Of a stretch of DNA of 36,644 bases, positions 27,094-34,983 are shown in pieces; position 1 is the stretch's first letter, and every line of letters starts with the position of its first letter. The notes under the pieces are model-generated. The model saw only the letters and a program-made list of their open reading frames with translations. It did not search any database and was not told the DNA's origin. The position numbers and the translations under genes are program-made. Source of the DNA: an uncultured Holophagaceae bacterium (GTDB lineage Bacteria; Acidobacteriota; Holophagae; Holophagales; Holophagaceae). The stretch lies in contig CAIOFF010000001.1 of NCBI GenBank assembly GCA_903857495.1, positions 1 to 36,644 of the forward strand. Reading direction: 5' to 3'.

Positions 27094-30000
27094 ATGTCCT
27101 CCCACCCCGTACCGGATCCCAAGGATCAGCCGACGGCCATTCTCGGAGAAGGTCTTGACCTGAAACCGGTCTTGCGGTCCTCAAGCATCCCCGCCGCCCT
27201 GCTCGCCTGGGACCGCTACGAGGTGTTCGAGGTGCTGGGCCAGGGCGGCATGGCGAAGGTCTACCGGGCCCGGGACCGAAAGCTGAACCGGATGGTGGCC
27301 CTGAAGTTCATCCGCGAGGAGCACCAGGGCAGCGGCCGCCTCCTGACCCTGGAGGCCCAGCTCCAGGCCAGCCTGGACCACGAGAACATCGTCAAGGTCT
27401 ATGAGACCGGCACCTTCGACGGCCTGCCCTTCATCGCCATGCAGCTGGTGCAGGGCGAGACGCTGGACCGGGTGTGCACCAACGACCTCCGCGCCCGGGT
27501 GGGGCTCCTGGTCCAGATCGCCCTGGCCCTGGACGCAGCCCACCGGCAGGGCATGGTGCACCGGGACCTGAAGCCCACGAACATCATGGTGGAGGCCGTG
27601 GACGGGCGGCTGAAGCCCTACCTCATGGACTTCGGGCTGGCGCGGCTCACCAACGTGGCCGGGCAGACGAGGGCCACATCCATCGTCGGCACCCTGGCCT
27701 ACATGTCCCCGGAGCAGGCCGAGGGAAACTGCCCCCTGGACATCCGCACGGACGTCCACGGTCTGGGCACGCTCCTCTACGAGTTCCTCTGCGGCCACCC
27801 CCCTTTCATGCAGGAGTCGTCCTCCCACGTGGAGATCATTCGCCGCCTGCTGGAGGAGGAAGCGACCCCACCCAGCCGCCACCACCCCGAGGTGCCCCGC
27901 GACCTGGAGATCATCGCCCTGAAGTGCCTGGAGAAGCAGCCGGAGCGCCGCTATGCCACGGCCGCGGCGTTGGCCGAGGACCTGCAGTGCTGGCTGGAGG
28001 GGCGGCCCATCCAGGCCCGCCGCACCAGCCTGCTGGAGCGCCACTTCAAAGCCATCCTGCGCCTGCGGAAGAACCGCCAGGCCTGGCTCACCACCCAGGC
28101 CGCAGGCCTGACCATCCTCTGCCTGCTCGGGATGGGAGCCTGGACCCTCTGGCGCGCGCGGCAGCGGGCGGACTTCGTGGCCCAGATGGGCATGACCCTG
28201 ATCCGGCTCGAGGAGGTCGTGCAGGCCTCGGAGATGGGACCGCTCCACGACACGCGCTCAGACCGCCGCCAGGTCAATGAGTTGTTGAACCTCGTCCGCA
28301 CCGACGCCGCCCGCTACGGAGCCACCACCCGGGCCCCCCTGGCCTATGCCCTGGGGCGGTTCCACCTGGCGCTCCACGACTACGAAGCGGCCCTGGAGGA
28401 CCTGCAGGATGCCTGGGACCAGGGCTTCCGGAACCCGGAGTCCGCCGAGGGTCTCGGCATGGCCCTGGGCGAGGTCTACCGGCTCCGCCGCCAGGCCCTG
28501 GAGCAGATCAAGGATCCCCAGCGCCGCAAGGCCCAAGAGGCACGGCTGCAAAAGACCCTCCAGGAGCCCGCCCTGGCCTACCTCTCTCAGGCGCAGGGGG
28601 GACGACCCGAGGATCAGGGCTACCGCGCCGCCCTGGCCGATGCCTTCGCCTGGCGCCACGCGGCGGTGCTCCAGCGCACGGAGCACCTGCTCAAGAATGC
28701 GCCCCTCGGCTACCGTTTCCTCAAGCTCCGGGCCAGTGCGGAGATGGGGCTCGCCAACCAGGCCATTGAAAAGGGGGATAATTCCGAGGCGCAAGTGCGC
28801 GTGCACAGCGCCTGCCAGGACCTCCGCCAAGCCCTGGACATCGCCCGCAGCGACAAGGAGAGCTGGCTCAACCTGGCCCGGGCGGCGGACCGGCTCCTCT
28901 ACCTGAACTCTTTCGTGAACGAAAACCCCCAGGAGAGCTACGCCTTCGGCATGGAGGCCTGTGCCAAAGCCCGAAGCCTCGATCCCGAGGACTCGGAGCC
29001 GTTCATCCTCGAGGCGGACCTCATCCGCAGCCTGGCGCGAGCGACAGAGGCCAAGGGCACCGACTCCAGCGGCCGCTTCCTGGAGGCCATCACCCACCTG
29101 GATGAGGCCCTGAAGCTTGCCCCGGACAACTTGGAAGCGCGCCGGAAGCTTGGCCTGCTCTACTGGAGCCTCGCCAACCTCGCTGTGGACCGCCAGCAGC
29201 CCTGCCAGGACCTGCTGGCCAAAGCTGAAACCGAGCTGCGCCGGGTGCTGGCCCAGCGCCCGGGCGACGTGCTCGCGGTGGCCATCCTGCTTGATGTGAT
29301 CTTCGACCAGTGCCAGGACCGGGACCGGCGGGGCGAGGATGTGCTGCCCACCCTCGACCAGGCCTTCCTGGTGTTCAAGAAGAGCCTTGAGCTGGAGCCC
29401 GCCAACGGCCGGATCCAGAACGTGGGCGTGATCCTCTGCGGCCAGCGCGCCCTCATCCGGGGGATCAGGGGCCTGGACCCCCTGCCGGACCTCAACGAGG
29501 GCATCGCCCTGGCGGAGGAGGTCATCAACCGGAACCGCGCCTACGCTTCGGCCATCGGCAACCGCTCGCTGCTGCTGCGCATGCGGGCCGAGCACAAGTG
29601 GCGCATCGGCGTCCCCTTTGAAGCCGACCTCCAGGAGGCCATCGAGACCGCCCAGCGGGGCCTGAAGATCCGCGGGACCAACGAGATCATCATCAACCTG
29701 GGGATGGCCCAGGCCTTGCGGGGCGCCCTGCGGGCCCGGGTCGGCGGGGATCCGCACCGGGACGTCGCGGACGCCCTGGAGCGCTTCGACCAGGCCCAGA
29801 AGCAGGACCCCATGAACCCGAACGTCCACTACTACAAGCTGGACGCCCGGATCACGGAGGCGACCTGGCTGCTCCAGCAGGGCCGGAGCGCCGCCGAGGT
29901 GCTGCGGGCCTGCCGCCGGGACCTGGACCGCGTGCGACCCATGGCTCCGGAGGCCCCGGACCTGCTCGTAGATCAGGCCAAGGTGCTCGAGTTGGAGGGC

Positions 30001-30264
30001 GTGGAGGCGGCCCGCATCGGGGGCACGCCGGCCGCCTTCCTTAAACGAGCGCTGAGCAGCCTCGAGCCTTTCGAGAAGCAGGCCGTGCAGATACCTGAGC
30101 ACAAAGCGCTCCGGGCCCGCCTCCTCCGGCGCCTCGCGGACTGCGAGCACGGCCCCGCTGCCGAGCAACTCCGGGAACAGGCCCGCGTCCTCCTCATCCG
30201 GGCCTTGGCCGAGAATCCCTACCTTACAGCCGAATACGGCAGTGGCGCCGGCCCGGCGCGTTAG
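27094..30264 (+). CDS. Ser/Thr protein kinase with C-terminal TPR-type region
   Basis: A 1056-residue protein. A cytoplasmic kinase domain (about 42-305) shows GQGGMA, VALKFI, VHRDLKPTNIM, DFGLAR, YMSPEQ and YEFLCGHPPF. One membrane helix (about 333-352, LTILCLLGMGAWTLW) follows, then about 690 residues of alpha-helical TPR-like repeats (such as ALGRFHLALHDYEAALEDLQDAWDQG) predicted outside the membrane. This kinase-TM-TPR plan is common in acidobacterial and myxobacterial signalling. No ribosome site is obvious before the ATG. It diverges from the S66 operon by 141 nt, and its stop is 19 nt from the convergent CoA-transferase fusion gene. Confidence 0.93.
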   Translation: MSSHPVPDPKDQPTAILGEGLDLKPVLRSSSIPAALLAWDRYEVFEVLGQGGMAKVYRARDRKLNRMVALKFIREEHQGSGRLLTLEAQLQASLDHENIVKVYETGTFDGLPFIAMQLVQGETLDRVCTNDLRARVGLLVQIALALDAAHRQGMVHRDLKPTNIMVEAVDGRLKPYLMDFGLARLTNVAGQTRATSIVGTLAYMSPEQAEGNCPLDIRTDVHGLGTLLYEFLCGHPPFMQESSSHVEIIRRLLEEEATPPSRHHPEVPRDLEIIALKCLEKQPERRYATAAALAEDLQCWLEGRPIQARRTSLLERHFKAILRLRKNRQAWLTTQAAGLTILCLLGMGAWTLWRARQRADFVAQMGMTLIRLEEVVQASEMGPLHDTRSDRRQVNELLNLVRTDAARYGATTRAPLAYALGRFHLALHDYEAALEDLQDAWDQGFRNPESAEGLGMALGEVYRLRRQALEQIKDPQRRKAQEARLQKTLQEPALAYLSQAQGGRPEDQGYRAALADAFAWRHAAVLQRTEHLLKNAPLGYRFLKLRASAEMGLANQAIEKGDNSEAQVRVHSACQDLRQALDIARSDKESWLNLARAADRLLYLNSFVNENPQESYAFGMEACAKARSLDPEDSEPFILEADLIRSLARATEAKGTDSSGRFLEAITHLDEALKLAPDNLEARRKLGLLYWSLANLAVDRQQPCQDLLAKAETELRRVLAQRPGDVLAVAILLDVIFDQCQDRDRRGEDVLPTLDQAFLVFKKSLELEPANGRIQNVGVILCGQRALIRGIRGLDPLPDLNEGIALAEEVINRNRAYASAIGNRSLLLRMRAEHKWRIGVPFEADLQEAIETAQRGLKIRGTNEIIINLGMAQALRGALRARVGGDPHRDVADALERFDQAQKQDPMNPNVHYYKLDARITEATWLLQQGRSAAEVLRACRRDLDRVRPMAPEAPDLLVDQAKVLELEGVEAARIGGTPAAFLKRALSSLEPFEKQAVQIPEHKALRARLLRRLADCEHGPAAEQLREQARVLLIRALAENPYLTAEYGSGAGPAR

Positions 30265-30283: not shown

Positions 30284-32158
30284 TCAGGGCGCTGCGAACA
30301 GCATGGTCACGTGGAGGGCGTCGTCCTCGCGGGTGACGCTCACGTTGTCGCAGCACTTCTTCGCCAGGGCCACCATCTTCTCGTTCTGGGGCAGGATCTC
30401 CGCCACGAACCCGCGCACGCCCCGGGTCATGGCGTGGGCCACCATGTGGGACTGCAGCACCGTGCCCAGGCCCGTGCCCTGCCAGGCGGGGTCCACCATG
30501 AAGGCGGTCTCCGCGAGGTTGCTCGACAGGTTCAGGAAGTAGCAGCACTGGGCCACCACGCACTCGTTCTCCCGCTCGCCGGTGACCGCCACGAAGGCCA
30601 CCTCGCTCTCGAAGTTGAGGTTGCACAGGCGCTGCACCTCGTCGCTGGAGAGGGCCAGCACCCGGCGGAAGAAGCGGGTGTAGACGTCGTCCTTCGACAG
30701 GTGGTGGAAGAGGCCCCGGATGGCGTCGCCGTCGCTGGCCTTGGCGGGACGCAGCATCACCTGGCGGCCGCCCTTGAGGGTGTAGGTGCGCTCCTCCTCC
30801 ACGGGATAGCTGCGCAGGTTCTCCAGGCGCTGGTCCGCGGGCAGGTAGCCCAGCTGCTTGGCCTCCTCCATGAGCCAGGGCCGGAACTTGGGATGGGCCA
30901 GCTCGATGAGGGCGATGGTCCGCTCCCGGATGGACTTCCCGAAGAGGTAGGCGATGCCGTATTCGGTGATGACGTAGTGGACGTCCGTGCGGGCGATGCT
31001 CACGCCCTCCCCCGCCAGCAGCTGGGGCCGGATGCGCGACATCGACGCGTCATCGTTGGTGGAGGAGAGGCAGACGATGGGCTTGCCGCCGGGGGAGCGT
31101 GCGGCGCCCCGGAGGAAGGCCGACTGGGTCTCTAATCCCCCGTAGAACTCGCCGTCGAGCTGGTCCGTGCAGACCTGGCCCGTGAGGTCCATGGTGAAGG
31201 CCTGGGTGATGGCCACCATGCGGGTCTGGGCCGCGATGGTGAAGGGATCGCAGACGATCTGGATGGGCTGGAGTGAGAACAGGGGATTGCGGTGGACCAG
31301 GTCGTAGAGGCGCCGGGTGCCAAGCAGGAAGCTGGCCACGATGCGGGACCGGGCCAGGGACTTCTGCTTGCCGGTGAGGATCCCCTTCTCCAACAGGGGG
31401 ATGACGGAGTCCGTGATCACCGCCGAGTGGATGCCCAGGTCCTTGCGGTCACCGAGGTATTTCAGCGCCTGCTCGGGGATGCGCCCGATGCCGATCTGGA
31501 GCGTGGAGCCATCGTCGATGATCCCCGCGATGTACTGGGCGATGCGCTCCACCACCGCGCCCTTGGTGACCGGGTGGCGGTATTCGATCACCGGGGTGTC
31601 CACGGGCACCAGCGCGTCGATCTCGCTCACATGGAGCGTGGTGTCCCCCATGGTCCAGGGCATGGCCGGGTTCACTTCCGCCAGGATCAACTTGGCCTTC
31701 TCCACAGCTGCGGACACCACATCCACGGAGACGCCGAGGCTGACGTAGCCAAACTCGTCGGGCGGGGTGACCTGGATGAGGGCCACGTCCACGGGGATGC
31801 GGCCCCGCTTGATGAGCTCGGGCACCAGGGCGAGCGAGATGGGCACATATTCAGCGAGGCCCTGGCGGATGGCGGCCCGCATGTCGGAGCCCACGTAGAA
31901 GCTGCGGTGCCGGAACCGCGTGGTGCAGCGGCCCTCGGCATCGTGGGGCACCGTGTCGGTGGTGATGAAGTGCAGCAACTCCAGGTCCGCGGGCGGCCGC
32001 TTCATGGTCTCCAGTGCGGCCACCAGGGCCCGCGGGCTGGCGCAGGCGGTGCCCAGGAAGACCCGCTGGCCCGGCTGGATGCGGGCCACGGCCTCCTCGG
32101 CCGTGCAGACCTTGCTGGCGTAGCGCTCGAGACTGGGCAGCAGGTTCGGCTGGGTCAT
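30284..32158 (-). CDS. CoA-transferase/acetyl-CoA hydrolase domain fused to GNAT acetyltransferase
   Basis: A 624-residue protein. Residues about 15-440 are an acetyl-CoA hydrolase/4-hydroxybutyrate CoA-transferase type domain (GIGRIPEQAL, GGKPIVCLSST, TEYGIAYLFGKSIRERT). Residues about 460-624 are a GNAT domain with acetyl-CoA loop QGTGLGT and Pat-like segments (MLRPAKASDGDAI, AETAFMVD). In this CoA-transferase class a Glu in GIHxEM is thought to form the acyl-glutamyl intermediate; here it reads GIHSAV with Ala246, so transferase activity is doubtful. Analogy to bacterial Pat, where a degenerate acyl-CoA-binding domain regulates a GNAT domain, suggests a protein-acetylation enzyme. The gene is divergent from a sirtuin-like gene. 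Confidence 0.9.
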   Translation of the reverse strand: MTQPNLLPSLERYASKVCTAEEAVARIQPGQRVFLGTACASPRALVAALETMKRPPADLELLHFITTDTVPHDAEGRCTTRFRHRSFYVGSDMRAAIRQGLAEYVPISLALVPELIKRGRIPVDVALIQVTPPDEFGYVSLGVSVDVVSAAVEKAKLILAEVNPAMPWTMGDTTLHVSEIDALVPVDTPVIEYRHPVTKGAVVERIAQYIAGIIDDGSTLQIGIGRIPEQALKYLGDRKDLGIHSAVITDSVIPLLEKGILTGKQKSLARSRIVASFLLGTRRLYDLVHRNPLFSLQPIQIVCDPFTIAAQTRMVAITQAFTMDLTGQVCTDQLDGEFYGGLETQSAFLRGAARSPGGKPIVCLSSTNDDASMSRIRPQLLAGEGVSIARTDVHYVITEYGIAYLFGKSIRERTIALIELAHPKFRPWLMEEAKQLGYLPADQRLENLRSYPVEEERTYTLKGGRQVMLRPAKASDGDAIRGLFHHLSKDDVYTRFFRRVLALSSDEVQRLCNLNFESEVAFVAVTGERENECVVAQCCYFLNLSSNLAETAFMVDPAWQGTGLGTVLQSHMVAHAMTRGVRGFVAEILPQNEKMVALAKKCCDNVSVTREDDALHVTMLFAAP

Positions 32159-32182
32159 GGCGGCTCTCGCAGGAAAGACTCA

Positions 32183-32200
32183 CGCGCCAACTGTGGCGCG
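32183..32200. promoter_or_regulatory. Palindrome in the CoA-transferase/sirtuin intergenic region
   Basis: CGCGCCA-actg-TGGCGCG is a 7-bp inverted repeat in the divergent region. It is a possible operator or a 5' UTR hairpin of the GNAT fusion gene. Two further tggcgc copies lie at about 32232 and 32263. Confidence 0.4.
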
Positions 32201-32310
32201 GGAGGTAAAAAGCAGGCATTGGAAAGGAGTCTGGCGCCTATTCTGTGGTGCTTCGTCCCTGGCGCATAGAGGCAATTCCGGGGCGCTATGATGTCCGCAC
32301 GGAGGTCCGA

Positions 32311-33018
32311 GTGGCCAGATCGTCCATCGTGGTGCTGAGCGGGGCTGGGATCTGTCCCGGCGGCGGCATCATGGCGGCCCACGCCGGGGACTCGCTCTGG
32401 GAGCGCCAGCTCCTGGAGGAAGTGACCGTGCCCATGGCCTACCGGCAGGATCCCCTGCGCATCCAGGGCTTCTACAACGCCCGGCGGCGGCGCCTCGCGG
32501 ACTTGGAACCCAGCGCTGCACACGTGGCCCTGGCCCGGCTGGAGACGGCCTGGCCCGGAGACTTCCTGCTGGTGACGACGAACGTGGACGATCTGCACGA
32601 GCGGGCGGGCAGCCGGGCCCCGATCCACCTCTTCGGCGAGCTGCTCAAGGCCCGTTGCACCGAGTGCCATCACGTGCACCCCTGGGCGGAGGACCTCGAC
32701 TTCAGTTCCTGCTGCCCCTCCTGCGCCACCCTGGGCCAGCTGCGGCCAAATATCGTCTGGTACGGCGAGCCCCCTCTGGAGATGCAGCGGGTCCATGCCA
32801 CTCTCGCCCAGTGCACCTGCTTCCTGGCCCTTGGGACCCCGGGGTACCTCCACCCGGCAGCGGGTTTTCGGGAGGACGTGCCCCCCTCGGCCCGCACCCT
32901 GGTGCTGGGCGCGGAGCCGGCAGAGGAGTCCGACGGCTTCCGGGAGCACCGCGTCGGCCCCGCGGACAGCGAGGTGACCGACCTCGTGGCGGAACTGCTG
33001 GCGGAGCAGGAGAGCTAG
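32311..33018 (+). CDS. Sirtuin-family protein (CobB/SIRT5-type fold) lacking catalytic His
   Basis: A 235-residue protein matching CobB in length and order: GAGIC (usually GAGIS) at 11-15, a FYNARRRR segment with Tyr55 and Arg58 as in desuccinylase-type sirtuins, TTNVDDLHERAG (usually TQNxD), two zinc CxxC pairs (116/119, 135/138), RPNIVWYGE and LGTPGYLHPAAGF. The catalytic His that precedes Gly in HxHG is Phe108 here (IHLFGELL), Phe-Arg of the FR motif is Ala-His, Gln of TQN is Thr90, and GTS is GTP. NAD or acyl-peptide binding may persist, but deacylation by the normal mechanism is unlikely. The start is GTG 32311, with ggagg 5 nt upstream; a longer frame from 32245 is not needed. It lies 152 nt from the divergent GNAT fusion gene. 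Confidence 0.9.
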   Translation: MARSSIVVLSGAGICPGGGIMAAHAGDSLWERQLLEEVTVPMAYRQDPLRIQGFYNARRRRLADLEPSAAHVALARLETAWPGDFLLVTTNVDDLHERAGSRAPIHLFGELLKARCTECHHVHPWAEDLDFSSCCPSCATLGQLRPNIVWYGEPPLEMQRVHATLAQCTCFLALGTPGYLHPAAGFREDVPPSARTLVLGAEPAEESDGFREHRVGPADSEVTDLVAELLAEQES

Positions 33019-33159: not shown

Positions 33160-34455
33160 ATGAGAATGGGTGCTGCCAGCGTGATCATCATCCTGGGCCT
33201 CGCGGCTGGCGCCGCCTGGGCCCGAGGGGATCGGCAGCCCCCGCCGCGACCCGCGGGCGGCCCAGAGCGCCGTCCCCCCAGGGAGGGACAGGGCGGCGGC
33301 TACAGCCTGGAACAGGCCCTGTCGGACCGCGCCCAGCTGCACACCATCGCCTTCAGCGGCCTGGCCTTCCTCACGGGGGAACCGGGCGCCTCCAGCTTCA
33401 TCCCGCCGGGCAAGGTCGCGGACTTCTTCGGCTTCCAATATCTGCGCGACATCGACGCCGCGGGCAAGGGACACAACCCCATGTTCCTGGATCGCATCGC
33501 CGGGAATGTGATGCGCCTGCTGAGCACCCCCCAGCGCCGCATCTTCGAGCAGGCCGCCCGGGAAGAGGCCGCGCAGCTGGAGGCCATCGCCCGCTTCCGC
33601 CTGCCCCTGGTGGCCGCCTTCCACCAGGACCTGGCAGGCCGCCTGCCCGCGGGCTGCAGGGGGCTGGATCGCCTCGCGGTGCGGGCCTACGTGGCCGACC
33701 TGTTCGAGCTGGACGCGCGCCTTGCCTGGCACCGCGCCAGGGCCTTCGGCGCCGTGGCCCAGTCCCTCAGCGACACCCAGTGGCGGACCCTCGGCGCCTG
33801 GAAGTTCGGCGACTTCCGCACCTGGCCCGAGGTGGACCGGGAAGCCCTCCGGGACCTGCGCCCCCGCGCCGCCACCAAGCTGGAGAGCGTCGCCTACATG
33901 ACCCTGGCCAGCGAGTTCTTCAGCTGGGTGGCGGGCTCGGTGGAGGCCGATACCTACTTCTGCCCCGAGCGCCACGGCACCTACTTCGGGGGCTTCTACT
34001 TCAAGGACCTGCCCGCCATGGGCCAAAAGGACTTCGACATCTCCACGAGCCTGACGGGCGACTCGGGGGAGGCCTTCCTGGCGGCCCTGACCCCCGCGCA
34101 GCGAGCCCGCATGGAGGCCCTGCCGGACCAGCAGCGCGAGCTGCTGCGGGGCATCGTGACGGTGCGCCGAGCCATCGCGGGCAAGCTGCGCACCTTCCAG
34201 ACGGGAGCCGGACCCACCGAGACGGAGCTTCGGGCCCTGGGCCGCCGTTACGGCGAGCTGGATGGCGAGCTGGCCTACCTCTACGCCAGCACCTTCGCGG
34301 CCATCGGTCGCTCGGCAGACGCCCCGCAGCTGGCTCGCCTCCGGTCCCTGCGCGGCCAGCCGAGCCGGGAAGCCGGCACCGCCTTCCTGTACTCGGACCG
34401 AATTCCCATGCCCCAGTGGCCCGATGCGTCCTTCCTCCTGGGCGGCCGGCGCTGA
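33160..34455 (+). CDS. Exported alpha-helical protein with internal duplication, unknown function
   Basis: A 431-residue protein with a signal peptide (MRMGAASVIIILGLAAGAAWA), a Pro/Arg/Gly linker (about 22-46) and then two related helical halves. Half one has FFGFQYLRDIDAAGKGHN, then a Gln/Arg-rich helix after LLSTPQRRIFEQA. Half two has FGGFYFKDLPAMGQKDFD, then LTPAQRARMEALPDQ. The LTPAQ/LSTPQ segments recall the LTxxQ motifs of Spy/CpxP-type periplasmic proteins, but no clear family membership is claimed. The ribosome site gggagg lies 5 nt upstream of the ATG. It is followed 45 nt later by the EF-hand gene, probably in one operon. Confidence 0.85.
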   Translation: MRMGAASVIIILGLAAGAAWARGDRQPPPRPAGGPERRPPREGQGGGYSLEQALSDRAQLHTIAFSGLAFLTGEPGASSFIPPGKVADFFGFQYLRDIDAAGKGHNPMFLDRIAGNVMRLLSTPQRRIFEQAAREEAAQLEAIARFRLPLVAAFHQDLAGRLPAGCRGLDRLAVRAYVADLFELDARLAWHRARAFGAVAQSLSDTQWRTLGAWKFGDFRTWPEVDREALRDLRPRAATKLESVAYMTLASEFFSWVAGSVEADTYFCPERHGTYFGGFYFKDLPAMGQKDFDISTSLTGDSGEAFLAALTPAQRARMEALPDQQRELLRGIVTVRRAIAGKLRTFQTGAGPTETELRALGRRYGELDGELAYLYASTFAAIGRSADAPQLARLRSLRGQPSREAGTAFLYSDRIPMPQWPDASFLLGGRR

Positions 34456-34500: not shown

Positions 34501-34983
34501 ATGCACCCCTCATTCCTACTCTTCCCGCTGCTGGCCGCGCTGCCCCAGAGCCCGGAAGCTTCCTCCCCTCGCCCGCGCCCCATCTCGCCCATCCTGCTGG
34601 CCCTGGACCTCAACGGCGACGGCATCCTCGACGCCGGTGAGCTGGCCGCCGCTTCCCAGTCCCTGCTGAAGCTCGACAAGAACGGGGACGGCCAGCTGAC
34701 GCCGGACGAGTATCGCCCGCCCCGCCCCGACGGCCAGACTTCGACCGCGCCCCCGCCCAGGCCCGCGAGTCAGGCCCGGGAGGCCCGCCCCCTGGAGCGC
34801 CCACGGCCGCCCCTGGACGCGGCCCTCGATGAGGACGGCGACGAGATCATCAGCGCCGCAGAGATTGCCCGCGCACCGCTGCTGCTCAAGAAGCTGGACC
34901 GCAACGGGGACGGCCGGCTGACGCCGGACGAGTACCAGCCGACGCCGCAGACGGGTCAGCCATCGAAGGCTGACAGACCGTAA
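34501..34983 (+). CDS. Secreted EF-hand protein (four EF loops in two pairs)
   Basis: A 160-residue protein with a short signal peptide (MHPSFLLFPLLAALP). Four 12-residue EF-hand loops are recognisable: DLNGDGILDAGE, DKNGDGQLTPDE, DEDGDEIISAAE and DRNGDGRLTPDE. They form two pairs separated by a Pro/Arg-rich linker, as from an internal duplication. The third loop has Glu in place of the conserved Gly at its sixth position and may bind calcium weakly. The ribosome site aaggag is 7 nt before the ATG. It is probably co-transcribed with the helical exported protein and serves calcium-dependent or structural roles in the envelope (inference). Confidence 0.9.
   Translation: MHPSFLLFPLLAALPQSPEASSPRPRPISPILLALDLNGDGILDAGELAAASQSLLKLDKNGDGQLTPDEYRPPRPDGQTSTAPPPRPASQAREARPLERPRPPLDAALDEDGDEIISAAEIARAPLLLKKLDRNGDGRLTPDEYQPTPQTGQPSKADRP

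Follow-up and report, generated by a model that had tools for sequence, protein, structure and literature searches.

What can a CobB-type sirtuin do once the histidine of its active site has been replaced, and why would such a protein be kept? This question is raised by a gene, here termed pSIR, of an uncultured bacterium of Holophagaceae, in which a Phe occupies the catalytic His position and whose divergently transcribed neighbor encodes a protein with an acetyltransferase domain. The stretch of DNA analyzed (the window, 36,644 nucleotides) represents contig C1 of the source genome, which comprises 3.7 Mb and is 98.5% complete. In bacterial protein acylation both writers and erasers are known, and pSIR would offer an example, open to direct test, of an eraser that has become a binder.

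The sirtuin gene and its active site

An initial annotation had described a CobB-like sirtuin with Phe at the catalytic His position, and this identity was borne out by the present analysis. pSIR matches the Pfam SIR2 domain with 96.8 bits (cut-off 24), and its AF2 model (mean pLDDT 84.7) superimposes on E. coli CobB (6rxj) with a TM of 0.90. By its Pfam domain and fold, the protein belongs to the SIR2 superfamily, CobB class III. The closest solved protein by sequence is likewise E. coli CobB (197 bits), and the nearest named records derive from uncultured Holophagaceae MAGs. The scores against two NCBIfam deacylase equivalogs fall below the respective cut-offs, both for NF001755, the best NCBIfam model (217 bits, cut-off 318), and for NF040867 (121.4 bits, cut-off 320). 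Annotation may call genes of this type NAD-dependent deacylases, given a SIR2 domain score well above its own cut-off. The GTG at 32311 is the likely start of the gene; an in-frame GTG located upstream, at 32245, would extend the product to 257 amino acids. The coordinates of this and the other features of the locus are collected in Table 1.

Table 1. Features of the pSIR locus and their positions in the window
Feature	Position	Strand	Basis or remark
Ser/Thr kinase-TPR protein	27094..30264	+	converges on the fusion gene; gene order shared by four genomes; both genes missing in G022
Fusion of a Cat1/4-hydroxybutyrate-type CoA-transferase domain and a Pat-like GNAT domain, 624 aa	30284..32158	-	profile and structure matches
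Fusion codon 246, GCG (Ala) at the catalytic Glu position (E238 of 3GK7)	31421..31423	-	alignment
Direct repeat CTGGCGC(C/A)TA	32231..32268		starts 28 bp apart
82 bp invariant across four species	32257..32338	+	TATGAT -10-like box, GGAGG, GTG start, nine codons
pSIR, CobB-type sirtuin without the catalytic His	32311..33018	+	235 aa; GGAGG lies five bases before the GTG start
Rewritten cofactor-binding loop, codons 15-28	32353..32394	+	C P G G G I M A A H A G D S replaces S A E S G x x T F R x x x G
Tyr55/Arg58, presumed acyl-recognition pair, codons 55-58	32473..32484	+	alignment; SIRT5 comparison
TTC (Phe) in codon 108 of pSIR, in place of the catalytic His	32632..32634	+	codon comparison
Zinc ribbon, codons 116-138, CxxC pairs C116/C119 and C135/C138	32656..32724	+	kept; conserved more among orthologues than in canonical copies
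431-aa protein	33160..34455	+	no Pfam or NCBIfam match
Small EF-hand repeat protein	34501..34983	+	downstream of pSIR

In the catalytic column of the alignment, His is found in 72 of the 76 rows, and Phe in the four pSIR orthologues alone. All four of them use TTC as the codon, against CAC or CAT in the 46/46 other rows of the genus which cover the motif. A single base error at this codon was ruled out, as the change from His to Phe requires two base changes and is common to four species. The initial annotation had proposed a search for orthologues with the same Phe, where the usual His would have pointed to a single mutation or base error; Phe is present in 4/4 full-length orthologues.

The replacement of the His of HG (F108) is accompanied by further substitutions, namely C15 for the Ser of GAGIS, A22-A23-H24 for Thr-Phe-Arg, T90 for the Gln of TQN and P177 for the Ser of GTS. 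The GAGxS...TFR cofactor-loop and GTS motifs are typical of sirtuins and are near-invariant in the present alignment too; pSIR departs from both of these marks of the CobB type, through C15, A22-A23-H24 and P177. Of the cofactor-loop positions that are near-invariant (Ser15 to Gly28), all but Gly19 are changed in the four pSIRs. The residues retained are N91, D93, Y55/R58 and the zinc cysteines (Cys116/119/135/138), as well as the VW(F/Y)GE strand, except for a change of its F to Tyr, which presumably falls within the acyl-lysine channel. By motif, we take Tyr55/Arg58 to be the equivalent of Y102/R105 in SIRT5. The acyl-recognition role of this SIRT5 pair is known, according to an excerpt of the source (PMC10652111).

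The residues which the initial annotation had listed as lost (Ser of GAGIS, Phe-Arg, Gln of TQN, Ser of GTS) or kept (the CxxC pairs, NxD and Tyr/Arg) are each as described, yet the exchange of Gln for Thr is no loss by itself, and the full extent of the loss is larger. Near-invariant columns were defined as those with one residue in at least 95% of 70 other sirtuins (L036 and L041 were excluded here, though counted for the His). Of 73 such columns, 47 are kept in all four pSIRs, 10 are mixed and 16 are lost. The losses affect 11/25 columns of the NAD/catalytic motifs versus 5/48 elsewhere (Fisher p 0.002, with a motif set that was picked after the losses were seen).

Several variants were observed in other sirtuins. 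The relatives from Marinobacterium (L037-L044) and Haliea (L036) are CobB-like and read TTN with an intact HIHG, and the zinc cysteines are absent from their aligned part. A sirtuin of the family, L116 (G428), has PMHG for HMHG, where the first His is replaced by Pro and the catalytic His is kept. As for the predicted structure of the cofactor loop, the mean AF2 pLDDT over residues 21-30 is 43 in pSIR versus 60 in a canonical control; disorder of the loop was considered weak evidence for loss, because the control is also poorly predicted there.

Orthologues, selection and shifted constraint

Orthologues of pSIR, 82-100% identical, occur in 4/47 genomes of the genus and 4/77 of the family, the source genome included. 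The genomes are G000 (own), G029 (L004), G069 (L046, the same place as L034) and G003 (L005). The reading frame is stop-free in 4/4, and all four proteins share HLFG, GxGICP(G/D)GGIMAAH and GTPG, together with T or A in place of the TQN Gln. In a sample of the phylum, 281 of 396 genomes have a sirtuin match, and among the matches listed close ones are found in G000 and G069 only; G003 and G029 were absent from the listed genomes, and the active-site residues were read in the fetched rows only. As far as four species show, Phe108 and its associated losses are a fixed trait of one clade.

An ordinary HMHG sirtuin is encoded elsewhere in each of the four pSIR genomes, in the source genome on contig C46. 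Over the six species pairs, the ML dN/dS of pSIR is 0.077-0.118 and that of the canonical sirtuin 0.035-0.111; the corresponding NG86 values are 0.204-0.312 versus 0.107-0.300, and dS among the pSIR pairs is ~0.6-0.8. pSIR and the canonical HMHG sirtuin are under purifying selection of similar strength. In pSIR, the sites on which it acts have shifted. Across the four species, the zinc ribbon (residues 116-142) has 24/26 identical columns in pSIR versus 12/26 in the canonical copies, while residues 191-235 have 20/41 versus 34/41 and the N-terminal 40 residues have 33 versus 37; the remaining segments are about equal (the segments were set after inspection of the data, and the p values are descriptive). 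Constraint has moved in pSIR, with a rewritten NAD loop, a freer C-terminal part and a zinc ribbon that is far more constrained than in the canonical sirtuin. The pattern is that of a protein which has probably abandoned NAD chemistry and gained a new constraint on its zinc ribbon. Another member of the genus also carries a second, long-branch sirtuin (L064 1293-1973, G004:C9), in which HLHG is intact; additional sirtuin copies in the genus therefore need not lose the His.

The pSIR clade is fully supported (100/100) on a long branch (1.43), and its members are 47-55% identical to the other sirtuins of the genus. In the tree of 75 rows, the clade adjoins the sirtuin of G201, from another genus of the family, with weak support (80/33). 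Recent duplication of the canonical copy of the same genome is unsupported, in view of this identity and of the weak placement by G201. An AU test of placement inside versus outside the canonical clade of the genus does not discriminate (p 0.504), such that the source of pSIR may be either a duplication within the genus or another lineage of the family. Duplicates were omitted from these analyses (L002, L033, L034 and L035, of L003, L004, L046 and L005), as was L065, a piece at a contig edge; the trees were calculated without L037-L044 and L118, which are partial, and the AU test without L036, L041, L113 and L114.

The invariant 82-bp run that spans the start of the gene is the longest such stretch within the 1.7 kb compared, and the adjoining segment (32150-32229) has 19/80 variable columns. 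The run fits a kept promoter and start, and argues against a dead gene. Its -10-like box was spotted by eye and is weak, given that a sigma-70 consensus scan found 0 sites (0.1 expected). A start at the upstream GTG (32245) would fit as well; in the frame that it opens, the two variable positions read by eye in 32245-32310 each fall on the third base of a codon. An RNA leader or Rfam element upstream of pSIR was rejected, with no Rfam match and no fold signal (z 1.28). The direct repeat listed in Table 1 lies in the conserved divergent promoter region and is a possible operator.

The divergent neighbor and its surroundings

The CoA-transferase domain of the divergently encoded fusion protein matches solved 4-hydroxybutyrate CoA-transferases. 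Its GNAT domain is recognized by Pfam (Acetyltransf_1, 34.5 bits, cut-off 20.7) and resembles that of Pat, with matches to 4nxy, 9it0 and 4oll. Q-x-x-G-x-G is the acetyl-CoA motif of GNAT domains, and QGTGLG in the fusion fits this motif. Against the NCBIfam Pat model the protein scores 54.2 bits, far below the cut-off of 460. No acetyltransferase of the CoA-transferase-GNAT architecture was described among the open-licence full-text matches listed.

E238 is the catalytic Glu of the CoA-transferase 3GK7, as given in an excerpt of PMC11659651. The corresponding residue, Ala246, is shared by 4/4 pSIR-linked fusions and is Gly in the orthologue of G201 (69% identical), and the Glu is present in 15/15 other aligned relatives, including five other CoA-transferase-GNAT fusions (the alignment was made without a seventh full-length fusion match, G126, and without the two stand-alone CoA-transferases of the source genome). 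The loss of the Glu is no proof of inactivity, since the CoA-transferase ThnP functions with Gly at this position, according to the same excerpt (PMC11659651). Fusions of this architecture with an intact Glu (L120-L124) occur in other families of the phylum.

The full-length fusion is found in the same 4/47 genomes of the genus as pSIR (the other genomes include incomplete MAGs) and adjoins it in 4/4. The pairing is one inherited block, and the co-occurrence counts as a single event. No sirtuin was detected near six other fusions (G201, G117, G355, G121, G400 and G273), in stretches of 10-12 kb with ~4 kb on either side, and in G201 the fusion lacks the Glu and has no pSIR alongside. The source genome also encodes an 820-aa protein, L125, with GNAT, CoA-binding and succinyl-CoA-ligase-like domains, i.e. 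the Pat architecture. Judged by its sequence, the locus would represent a second writer, with a sensor domain minus its catalytic residue, together with a second "eraser" minus its own.

A fifth genome, G022, holds part of the locus. Here pSIR is joined, at codon 171-172 (window 32823), to DNA that lies immediately upstream of the S66 peptidase gene (window 27002), and only a frameshifted 3' remnant of pSIR is kept. Most simply, a single deletion of ~5.8 kb removed the kinase, the fusion and the first 171/235 pSIR codons, although the junction may be an assembly fault of this 340-contig MAG. If the deletion is real, the island is ancestral to five species and dispensable in one. No clean empty site was found; in G026, G030 and G035, fragmented assemblies place the S66 peptidase and gamma-lyase genes on separate contigs. 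On the other side of pSIR, the gene for the 431-aa protein is present in G029 and G069 at 94-95% identity, with no copy found in the parts of G003 and G022 that were read, and that for the EF-hand protein is present in the three other pSIR species and in G022 (weaker in G003, at 61%). Pfam was run on 16 ORFs of the window, among them those of the kinase and the fusion to one side of pSIR and those of the 431-aa, EF-hand and gamma-lyase proteins to the other; among these 16, macrodomain, GcvH-L/lipoyl carrier and LplA2/lipoate ligase families are absent.

Possible functions and known systems

The probability that pSIR lacks deacylase activity, as a genuine pseudo-deacylase kept by selection, is estimated at about 0.85. 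The initial annotation had considered a pseudoenzyme that may sense acyl-lysine or NAD. The pseudoenzyme part of this proposal is supported by losses that four species share while the gene is under purifying selection, by the canonical sirtuin that these genomes also keep and by the concentration of the losses in the NAD/catalytic motifs. NAD sensing now seems the less likely role, as it is in the NAD-binding loop and the C-terminal part that the protein has been rewritten or freed. Acyl-lysine binding fits better, in that the Tyr/Arg pair, the VW(F/Y)GE strand (with Tyr for its F) and the zinc ribbon are kept; against it stand this Tyr, with its presumed place in the acyl-lysine channel, and G022, where pSIR is mostly lost and is thus dispensable.

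Most likely, pSIR would be a non-catalytic protein that binds acyl-lysine or a partner and is tied to the adjoining acetyltransferase. It may bind acyl-lysine, or the acetyltransferase itself, without cleavage, and may thereby serve as a reader, shield or competitor for the proteins acylated by that enzyme, with erasing left to the ordinary sirtuin elsewhere in the genome. That acyl-lysine binding or shielding is its main role is proposed tentatively, at somewhat less than even odds. Ala246 suggests that the CoA-transferase domain of the fusion may in turn be a non-catalytic acyl-CoA sensor, like the dead acyl-CoA synthetase domain in Pat. A more speculative and rather unlikely extension is a "shadow" acylation module, in which an acetyltransferase would be steered by a dead CoA-transferase sensor and a dead sirtuin would read or shield the resulting acyl-lysines, the two sharing a divergent promoter region and acting atop the ordinary Pat-like protein and sirtuin. 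If true, this module would comprise a bacterial acyl-lysine reader derived from an eraser. Both elements are already known, though separately, from the class M sirtuins, which lack the His, and from the dead sensor domains of Pat; no report of a sirtuin-derived bacterial reader or a CobB-type pseudo-sirtuin was found among the open-licence full-text matches listed.

The zinc ribbon, as the segment most over-constrained relative to the canonical copy, would also suit a dead sirtuin that acts through this ribbon as a scaffold or inhibitor, with the canonical sirtuin or the CoA-transferase-GNAT protein as its partner, and reads no acyl-lysine. Such coupling has a precedent in the sirtuin paralogues FAM118A and FAM118B, which regulate each other, according to an excerpt of PMC12700824. 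A pure scaffold, however, needs neither the Tyr/Arg pair nor the acyl-lysine-channel strand, which are kept, the latter for the most part, and this explanation is somewhat unlikely. Nor is the loss of the His proof of inactivity, since class M sirtuins keep NAD chemistry without it. pSIR may have retained or gained another NAD-dependent activity, such as ADP-ribosyl transfer or NAD hydrolysis, for which its Asn91 and Asp93 speak, as does SirTM, an active ADP-ribosyltransferase without the His in the excerpted account (PMC4518038). Yet the Ser, Thr, Phe, Arg and Gly of the cofactor loop, the Gln of TQN and the Ser of GTS are all changed, residues 191-235 are the least constrained part of the protein, the Gln137 that SirTM activity requires is Phe in pSIR, and the accompanying macrodomain, lipoyl carrier and lipoate ligase families are missing from the 16 scanned ORFs, all of which renders such an activity improbable.

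The two remaining explanations may be given very little weight. The frameshifted 3' remnant, all that is left in G022, and the loose C-terminal 45 residues are features of the kind expected from a neutrally decaying paralogue whose frame has not yet been broken. Still, an ML dN/dS of ~0.1 at the dS observed and the open frames led to the rejection of a decaying pseudogene; in addition, the invariant region spans the start, and the remnant stems most simply from a multi-gene deletion and not from gradual decay. A lysine deacylase that operates via another base or substrate-assisted chemistry would account for the retained fold, zinc site and Tyr/Arg pair, but with both the general base and the NAD loop lost it is hardly to be expected. 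Acyl-lysine or partner binding without catalysis is retained as the preferred reading.

Among known systems, pSIR most resembles E. coli CobB (1s5p, 6rxj) in fold, size and the Tyr/Arg pair, and the two are 42% identical across the structural alignment. In CobB, the catalytic His (His147, according to an excerpt of PMC8556138) and the full cofactor loop are present, whereas pSIR has Phe and a rewritten one. Class M sirtuins are the nearest precedent for a sirtuin fold without the catalytic His. The excerpt available for SirTM (PMC4518038) reports that no deacylase activity was found, and describes the conserved Gln137 and an operon with a macrodomain, GcvH-L and LplA2; unlike SirTM, pSIR has Phe108 in place of this Gln, and the scanned part of the window has none of these operon families. 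The pair formed by pSIR and the canonical sirtuin may be compared with FAM118A/FAM118B, likewise sirtuin paralogues, for which regulatory coupling is known; the excerpted source (PMC12700824) describes the FAM118 proteins as ThsA-like, with an active-site His, and as processing NAD jointly. The fusion, for its part, is like the Pat-type acetyltransferases, the type I/II GNATs, which have an inactive acyl-CoA synthetase domain, as stated in an excerpt of PMC8556138. In both cases a Pat-like GNAT is joined to a large acyl-CoA enzyme domain minus its catalytic residue, yet this domain is an NDP-forming acyl-CoA synthetase in Pat and a CoA-transferase in the fusion.
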